From NCBI RefSeq assembly GCF_000024985.1, contig NC_013524.1:248001-312000 (forward strand): DNA of 64,000 nucleotides, in the 5' to 3' direction. The notes under the pieces are model-generated. The model did no database searches, had not been told where the DNA came from, and saw only the letters and a list, made by a program, of their open reading frames with translations. Position numbers and translations under genes: made by a program. Shown here one piece after another: positions 25-2,414 of this stretch (positions are counted from its first letter, which is position 1; every line of letters starts with the position of its first letter). Source of the DNA: Sphaerobacter thermophilus DSM 20745. GTDB taxonomy: Bacteria; Chloroflexota; Chloroflexia; Thermomicrobiales; Thermomicrobiaceae.

Positions 25-53
25 TTCCGGCTGACGCCGATTCGCGGTAGATT
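25..53 (+). promoter_or_regulatory. possible sigma-70-type promoter before the SelW-like gene
   Basis: TTCCGG (25-30) and TAGATT (48-53) are separated by 17 bases. The -10 is good and the -35 is poor. A 7-bp hairpin (CGGCTCC 62-68 with GGAGCCG 78-84) lies in the predicted leader ahead of the ribosome binding site at 116-120. The call rests on spacing and the -10 only. Confidence 0.35.
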
Positions 54-126
54 AGGCGGTGCGGCTCCCGGCGTACTGGAGCCGGGTAATTGTGGTTGCA
101 TGGTCGGTACGAGAAGGAGGGTGTCG

Positions 127-372
127 ATGCCCCATCGCATCACGATCGAATACTGCCAGAGTTGAGGCTACCGCGGTAAAGCCACCGGTGCGGTGGACGC
201 GATTCTGGCGCATTACCAGTCCCACCTCAGCGAGATCACCCTCAAACCCAGCAGCGGCGGTGTATTCGACATAACCGTCGACGGCGAAGTCGTCTTCTCG
301 AAGCACGACGCCGGACGCTTCCCGGAACAGGACGAGGTCATCCGCCTCGTGGGGGAGCGGATCCGCGCCTAA
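127..372 (+). CDS. SelW/SelT/SelH-family (Rdx) selenoprotein, read through an in-frame TGA
   Basis: This 81-residue thioredoxin-like protein is probably a small redox protein of the cytoplasm. ATG 127 follows GGAGG (116-120) with six bases between. Reading through TGA 163-165 as selenocysteine gives Y-C-Q-S-U-G-Y: Cys10 and Sec13 form the C-x-x-U redox motif at the end of the first beta strand, exactly where Rdx proteins carry it. The remainder keeps the family tail G-G-V-F-D-I-T-V-D-G, then F-S-K and G-R-F-P-E, and ends at TAA 370-372. Both sides of the TGA are in one frame, so a decayed gene is unlikely. A hairpin just after the TGA fits a bacterial SECIS. The family has Cys-containing forms (C-x-x-C). 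Its precise substrate is unknown. The genome must also carry selA, selB, selC and selD, none of which lie here. Confidence 0.88.
172..201 (+). promoter_or_regulatory. bacterial SECIS-like stem-loop after the TGA codon
   Basis: CCACC (182-186) pairs with GGTGG (192-196) around the loop GGTGC (187-191). A lower helix, CGCG 172-175 with CGCG 198-201, extends it across an internal loop. The apical loop begins 21 bases after the TGA and starts with GG. Bacterial SECIS elements are known to be loose hairpins within the coding region, with the loop about 16-37 bases from the UGA and a G among its first bases. SelB binding is inferred, not shown. Confidence 0.6.
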
Positions 373-606: not shown

Positions 607-1005
607 TCAGGCCTCACCCGGCTGCGCGGTGGCCGGGGTTTCGAAGCGGGGAGGCACACGTGTCGTCACGGCTTCGCCAAGCTCGTCCAGGTCGAACGGC
701 TTGTGCAGCAGCGCGTCGATCGGCAGCACCGAGGCGAGTTCATCGGCATTGCCCAGGGCGGAGATGGCGATGATCGGGATCGACGCAGTGTGCGCGTGCT
801 GGCGCAGCATGCGGGCAGCCTCACCGCCGTTCAGGTGCGGCATCATGAGATCCATGACGATCAGATCCGGCGGTGCCGCGGTGGCTCGCTTGACTGCCTG
901 CTCGCCGTGCGCAACGACCTCGACCACGTATCCGAGTTCGCTCAGGTACTCCCCCAATGCCTGCGCGAGATTCGGCTCGTCCTCGACGACGAGAATCCGC
1001 GACAT
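607..1005 (-). CDS. single-domain response regulator (CheY-like receiver)
   Basis: This is a cytoplasmic receiver of 132 residues with no output domain, so it signals by protein contact or as a phosphate relay. It begins M-S-R-I-L-V-V-E-D-E, giving the acidic pair Glu8/Asp9. The phosphoacceptor is Asp52 in L-I-V-M-D-L-M-M-P, the switch Ser is Ser82 and the conserved Lys is Lys102 in H-K-P-F. The ATG at 1005 was chosen over a longer frame because GGAAGGG lies just upstream and the receiver fold starts at once. A short Pro/Ala-rich tail follows. No histidine kinase is adjacent; the nearest one in the window is at 22,401-24,410, and a link to it is not supported. Confidence 0.88.
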   Translation of the reverse strand: MSRILVVEDEPNLAQALGEYLSELGYVVEVVAHGEQAVKRATAAPPDLIVMDLMMPHLNGGEAARMLRQHAHTASIPIIAISALGNADELASVLPIDALLHKPFDLDELGEAVTTRVPPRFETPATAQPGEA

Positions 1006-1199
1006 GCCCAATCCCTTCCAGGTGCCCTTCCGGCCTAAAGCGAACGGATTCGGGACGACGGCCGGATAGTTCGCTTCCAACTGCGTAGCGGCCGATTGGT
1101 AGAATAGTCGACAGCACGGGACCCTGCACGGTGCGGCTCGCCTCCGCCCCGCCGAGCGGTCCGGATCGACGTCGCGCGGAGTGGTTCCAGGAGGATGGT

Positions 1200-2414
1200 G
1201 TGCCTGAAATCCGGCCGGTTGTGGTCGTACGAGTCCATGAAGTCGCCCTCAAGGGACGCAACCGTCCCTGGTTCATGCGCGTGTTGCGTCGAAACCTCGC
1301 GCACGCGCTGCGGGGCGTGCCGTACCAGGATCTGAAACTCCGCAGCGGCCGTGCCCTCATCACGCTGAACGACGTAGCCGAATGGTCCCAGGTCCGGGAG
1401 AGGCTGTCCCAGGTCTTTGGGGTAGCCAACTTCTCGTTGACGGTGGAGGCGGGCCTCCCGATCGAGGAGATCCGTGAGGCGATCGGGGCGCTGCTGGAGG
1501 CGGAGGGCCCCCCGCCGGGCACGTTCCGCGTGCGCGCCAAGCGCTCCAACAAGGACTATCCCCTGATCTCGCCCGAGATCGAGCGCGATCTCGGCGCCTA
1601 CATCCAGCAGCGGACCGGTGCACCGGTGGACCTGCGTCGGCCGGACCGCACCTACCGCGTCGAGGTGCTGCACGATGCCGCATACGTCAGCAGCGAGACG
1701 ATCCCGGGACCGGGCGGGCTGCCCGTGGGTGTCAGCGGACGGGTCGTGGTGTTGATGTCCGGCGGCTTCGACTCGCCCGTCGCCGTGTATCGCATGATGA
1801 AGCGTGGCTGCGAGGTGACGCTGCTCCACTGCCACGCCTACCCCTTCGTCCGCTCCACCTCGATTGAGAAGGTGGTCGAGCTGGCGCAGCACCTGGGACG
1901 CCACCAGCCCGGCATGCGCCTGGTCATTGTCCCGATCGGGCAGGCACAGCGGCAGATCGCGATTGCCACCGAGCCGGAGATCCGGGTCGTCCTCTACCGG
2001 CGGCTGATGATGCGGATCGCGGAGGCCATCGCCGAGCGGGAGGGGGCCAAGGCCATCGTTACCGGCGAGAGCCTGGGGCAGGTCAGCTCCCAGACTTTGG
2101 ACAACCTGCGGGCGATCGGCGCCGCGGTCAAGCTTCCGATCCTCCGGCCGCTGATCGGGTTCGACAAGGAAGAGATCCTGGCCGAGGCCAAGCGCATCGG
2201 GACCGAGCCGATCTCGCGGGTGCCCGACGACGACTGCTGCACCGTCTTCGTGCCGCGCCACCCGACGACCCACGCCACGATCGAAGAGGCCGAGGCCGCC
2301 GAGGAGCCGCTCGACGTGAAGGCGCTGGTTGAGAGTTCCCTCGCGCAGCGCACCGAGTACCGCGGCGACCCGGCCAAGTGGAACGTGATGGACGCGCTGG
2401 CAGGCGCGGCCTGA
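1200..2414 (+). CDS. thiI: tRNA 4-thiouridine synthetase ThiI (no rhodanese domain)
   Basis: ThiI adenylates uridine 8 of tRNA and transfers sulfur to make 4-thiouridine; in many bacteria it also serves thiazole synthesis. The 404-residue product has an N-terminal ferredoxin-like region and THUMP domain (about residues 1-160). The PP-loop ATPase domain follows with S-G-G-F-D-S-P-V-A near residue 185, and the family's D-D-C-C-T-V-F-V-P-R-H-P lies near the C-terminus. The extra rhodanese domain of enterobacterial ThiI is missing, as in Bacillus-type enzymes, so sulfur must come from a partner. GTG 1200 is preferred because AGGAGG stands at 1189-1194; an in-frame ATG at 1131 lacks a site. The gene converges on the next one with only 16 bases between stops. 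Confidence 0.93.
   Translation: MPEIRPVVVVRVHEVALKGRNRPWFMRVLRRNLAHALRGVPYQDLKLRSGRALITLNDVAEWSQVRERLSQVFGVANFSLTVEAGLPIEEIREAIGALLEAEGPPPGTFRVRAKRSNKDYPLISPEIERDLGAYIQQRTGAPVDLRRPDRTYRVEVLHDAAYVSSETIPGPGGLPVGVSGRVVVLMSGGFDSPVAVYRMMKRGCEVTLLHCHAYPFVRSTSIEKVVELAQHLGRHQPGMRLVIVPIGQAQRQIAIATEPEIRVVLYRRLMMRIAEAIAEREGAKAIVTGESLGQVSSQTLDNLRAIGAAVKLPILRPLIGFDKEEILAEAKRIGTEPISRVPDDDCCTVFVPRHPTTHATIEEAEAAEEPLDVKALVESSLAQRTEYRGDPAKWNVMDALAGAA

Follow-up and report, generated by a model that had tools for sequence, protein, structure and literature searches.

A predicted SelW-like selenoprotein with an in-frame UGA and a short downstream hairpin in Sphaerobacter thermophilus

The reading frame and its internal TGA

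The smaller replicon (1,252,731 bases) of the two-replicon Sphaerobacter thermophilus genome (3,993,764 bases; G000) carries a short reading frame that is interrupted by a TGA codon. The question raised by this locus is whether that codon ends a product of only 12 residues, as it would without UGA decoding, or is read as selenocysteine (Sec) within a complete redox protein. The window, meaning the whole 64-kb stretch of DNA that was analysed (G000:C2:248001-312000), contains the following features at and beside the locus:

114-120, plus strand: Shine-Dalgarno sequence AAGGAGG, 6 nt 5' of the ATG, read directly from the sequence
127-372, plus strand: predicted selW-like (Rdx) selenoprotein gene, 81 aa, ATG start and TAA stop (translation with TGA as Sec, family matches, homologues)
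154-165, plus strand: redox motif Cys10-Gln-Ser-Sec13 (TGC CAG AGT TGA; translation and alignment)
163-165, plus strand: in-frame TGA, predicted to be read as Sec (TGA in 43 Sec-form genes, a Cys codon at this place in Cys forms)
607-1080, minus strand: response regulator, 3' of selW
1131-2414, plus strand: ThiI-like gene, 3' of selW

With TGA taken as Sec (U), positions 127-372 translate as MPHRITIEYCQSUGYRGKATGAVDAILAHYQSHLSEITLKPSSGGVFDITVDGEVVFSKHDAGRFPEQDEVIRLVGERIRA, the terminal stop being TAA (370-372) and the TGA at 163-165 the only internal one. The original prediction had described an 81-residue Rdx protein with Cys10-x-x-Sec13 read through this TGA, its frame intact on both sides, preceded by a good ribosome site and cut short or missed by standard gene calling, and these points were borne out. 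An open reading frame listing under translation table 11 gave no frame of at least 60 aa in the selW frame here; only two overlapping shadow frames (52-306, minus strand; 59-274, plus strand) were listed at the locus. A motif resembling the Shine-Dalgarno sequence also precedes the selW start in nearly all homologues. Comparison with the SelW/SelT/SelH families, which had been proposed as a check, gave matches over the cut-off to Pfam family Rdx (PF10262; 83.5 bits, E 1.2e-23, cut-off 22.6) and to TIGR02174 (CXXU_selWTH; 66.8 bits, cut-off 34.2). The Pfam match runs across the TGA (residues 4-75) and aligns profile positions 1-72 of 74, so that the Rdx domain extends over the whole protein. 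In a 15-row alignment the columns of Cys10 (always Cys) and of residue 13 (always Sec or Cys) are invariant.

An Rdx match was identified in 46 of the 61 genomes of the order and contains a TGA in 42 of the 61 (43 genes, one genome having two); among genomes of the same family, 18 of 21 possess the TGA form. The TGA lies at the CxxU position in all 43 Sec-form genes and is retained across homologues from 85% down to approximately 32% identity. Homologues in close relatives, where a different codon or frame would have counted against the prediction, agree with S. thermophilus in both the TGA and the frame. Cys forms occur in the order too (CAEC, CHEC, CFEC and CADC). A lone TGA where some homologues have Cys, with only 12 residues ahead of it, could be the mark of a pseudogene, namely an ordinary Cys Rdx gene broken when a TGC or TGT codon mutated to TGA; against this, the same codon is shared by those 43 genes even at the lowest identities, and selection against amino-acid change persists 3' of it. 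For that part, comparison of S. thermophilus with congener G001 gives a dN/dS of 0.42, and four further pairs give 0.07 to 0.26; the protein part after the TGA is under purifying selection and is therefore made. That the TGA is an error of sequencing or assembly has no specific support beyond the principle that any single codon can be misread, and the recurrence of the same codon in independent genomes of the genus and family leaves this explanation a negligible probability.

The response regulator adjoins selW in G001 as well, and a regulator about 40% identical does so in four genus-g4 loci; ThiI was seen beside selW only in S. thermophilus and G001. In one genome of the order, two Sec-form SelW genes (L021 and L072) form a tandem pair (G050:C364:11133-11648), both with the TGA and with the hairpin described below.

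Selenocysteine machinery of the host genome

S. thermophilus S 6022T (DSM 20745) is an obligate aerobe (PMC3035262). Its genome contains the following genes relevant to Sec decoding (C2 is the smaller replicon and C1 the other):

C1:1198172-1198264, minus strand: selC, tRNA-Sec, anticodon TCA (UCA), 74.1 bits against a 47-bit cut-off; called tRNA-SeC by ARAGORN
C1:767488-768840: selA, 527 bits against a cut-off of 268
C1:2192540-2194390, minus strand: selB, 359 bits against a cut-off of 242
C1:928852-929787, minus strand: selD (L059), 380 bits against a cut-off of 125, with one in-frame TGA at ASCAGU
C2:11655-13013, plus strand: formate-dehydrogenase-like (molybdopterin oxidoreductase) gene L082, with an internal TGA in RIUHSSTV
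C2:1093294-1094742, plus strand: second formate-dehydrogenase-like (molybdopterin oxidoreductase) gene, with an internal TGA

The absence of sel genes from the genome had been named as grounds for rejecting the prediction; the search for selA, selB, selD and the selC tRNA identified all four over their family cut-offs. The tRNA-Sec call is based on the 74-bit RNA-family match together with the ARAGORN call, since ordinary tRNAs with a long arm also turn up among the RNA-family matches, most of them under the cut-off and a few just above it. Matches to selA, selB and selD far under the cut-offs were disregarded, being taken for related enzymes with different functions. A tRNA search of the 64-kb window found none, because selC is located on the other replicon, and an Rfam search of the window gave no match.

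The selD gene is itself predicted to encode a selenoprotein (ASCAGU), and the same holds for most of the order. TGA-containing formate-dehydrogenase-like genes are situated on the small replicon of this obligate aerobe, and the RIUHSSTV of L082 is presumably the formate dehydrogenase Sec motif (FdhA). Judged from gene content, the S. thermophilus genome decodes Sec, with three or four candidate selenoproteins so far.

Across the 61 genomes of the order, a TGA-form Rdx gene and a full-score selA occur together in 38, the former alone in four, selA alone in seven and neither in 12 (Fisher p = 2.9e-5, a value that overstates independence because the genomes are related). Two of the four genomes with TGA-form Rdx and no full-score selA are incomplete (G006, 78%; G060, 64%), and the other two (G035, G040) contain selA fragments. 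In congener G002 (91% complete, sel genes present) no SelW match was found; selW may be dispensable, or may be absent from that assembly. No Rdx gene and no full-score selA were found in genus g12 (G026, G034, G055 and G056), a pattern suggesting that Sec decoding and SelW were lost together, although two of its four genomes are only 72% complete.

Readthrough of the TGA as another amino acid, whether by a near-cognate Trp tRNA or under a reassigned code, would likewise keep the frame under selection. The selW genes of several relatives, however, terminate at TGA, and TGA is therefore also a stop in the order. The presence of tRNA-Sec(UCA), SelA, SelB and SelD, and the location of the codon where the family has its Cys/Sec redox site, also speak for Sec rather than for another residue.

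A hairpin downstream of the UGA

A putative SECIS element was identified 3' of the UGA:

182-196, plus strand: predicted apical hairpin of a bacterial SECIS, consisting of CCACC (182-186), loop GGUGC (187-191) and GGUGG (192-196); pairing in 43 Sec genes

Counted from the UGA, the two arms of its 5-bp stem fall at nt 17-21 and 27-31, and the 5-nt loop lies at a distance of 21 nt. The stem is fully paired at the same offset in 43/43 Sec genes; the next-best offset (28 genes) shifts this hairpin into an overlapping register, and no independent offset comes close. When the genes were reduced to 25 distinct representatives, every stem cell still paired and no slid version came near. Compensatory changes on both sides were observed in two of the five pairs (GC to AU and CG to UA). 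Synonymous redrawing of the codons according to the genes' own usage (2000 draws) gave a full stem in 8.7 +/- 2.6 of the 43 genes, with a maximum of 18, against the 43 observed. The hairpin is present in none of the six Cys homologues. Loop base 2 is G in all 43 genes and loop base 3 is U in 41.

A published bSECIS model describes an apical loop of 3-9 nt, a stem of 4-16 bp, G at loop positions 1 and 2, a distance of 16-37 nt from the UGA and a minimum free energy of -7.5 kcal/mol or lower (PMC13188914). The S. thermophilus hairpin agrees with this model (loop GGUGC of 5 nt, 5 bp, 21 nt, -8.0 kcal/mol as a simple stem). It is not the minimum-energy fold of the 48-nt single strand from the UGA, where its pair probability is about 0.20; once the 12 bases directly 3' of the UGA are excluded, the best fold becomes a hairpin on the same stem with a smaller loop. 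Those bases would presumably be covered by a ribosome waiting at the UGA.

That the hairpin obeys the bSECIS rules counts further against another amino acid at the UGA, which we consider very unlikely. A pseudogene is also hard to reconcile with a complete set of Sec machinery and a hairpin that covaries, and its chance appears extremely small. The gene is thus predicted, with high confidence, to encode a SelW-like (Rdx, PF10262) selenoprotein with a CxxU site whose UGA is decoded as Sec. The established way for bacteria to insert Sec relies on SelB and on a SECIS hairpin 3' of the UGA. Translation would start at ATG 127; at UGA 163-165, SelB-GTP-Sec-tRNA(Sec), recruited by the hairpin at 182-196, would insert Sec at residue 13 instead of allowing termination, and the ribosome would then continue to TAA 370-372.

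It is about as likely as not that the SelW-like genes throughout this order of Chloroflexota share a lineage-specific minimal SECIS (a 5-bp CCRYC/GRYGG stem, a GU-bearing 5-nt loop and fixed spacing) kept under strong selection in a hot-living obligate aerobe. If so, it would offer a compact natural SECIS for study.

Place among known selenoproteins

The protein is probably a small thiol/selenol oxidoreductase in which Cys10 and Sec13 would form a selenenylsulphide, a function suggested by its CxxU motif, and a putative role in peroxide or thiol homeostasis is probable. A literature search on experimental bacterial SelW function returned nothing useful.

The original prediction held that this gene would make the organism a Sec-decoding member of its group. 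The full sel set upholds the decoding; any implied distinction within the group needs qualifying, Sec decoding being common in the order and phylum and having been reported earlier for Chloroflexi (PMC1794560) and described in Dehalogenimonas (PMC4918011). Rdx was found in 72 of 151 sampled Chloroflexota genomes, in many with TGA, across many families. In its Sec decoding S. thermophilus is no exception, the trait being present in the majority of its order and in many families of Chloroflexota. Some of the Chloroflexota Rdx matches (G172:C12, G168:C9, G088:C10, G069:C40 and G186:C12) are listed with a second stop (TAG or TAA) besides the TGA, which is probably the ordinary terminal stop within the match.

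The 2010 genome paper, in which genes were called with Prodigal and GenePRIMP, makes no mention of selenium biology (PMC3035262). In openly accessible main texts, no earlier description of the gene was met in work linking Sphaerobacter or Thermomicrobium to selenocysteine or selenoproteins; a 5200-genome survey (PMC5029168) names its organisms in supplements only. S. thermophilus thus gains a well-supported predicted selenoprotein of an already well-known kind; the Sec form of SelW is the usual one in its order and common in Chloroflexota, and the general picture of selenium use is unchanged. The 43-gene set makes a clean comparative case for a short SECIS hairpin.

SelW-like proteins are among the commonest bacterial selenoproteins. 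A further curated family is the Campylobacter-type equivalog NF041051 (SelTWH_Campy, NCBIfam), matched over residues 5-75 at 83.9 bits; the protein is not assigned to it because this score is just short of the curated 88-bit cut-off. Among Rdx structures in the PDB, 3dex (SAV_2001; E 1.7e-14) and 2fa8 (Atu0228; E 2e-11) are related over most of the protein, although their chains are more than 20 residues longer. Known bacterial SelW-like selenoproteins share an N-terminal-region CxxU, a small Rdx domain, an in-frame UGA and a SECIS inside the coding region close 3' (PMC2398784). The S. thermophilus case differs from these in nothing essential; its host, a member of the Chloroflexota, is thermophilic and obligately aerobic, and its hairpin follows a fixed CCRYC-NGNNN-GRYGG pattern throughout the order.
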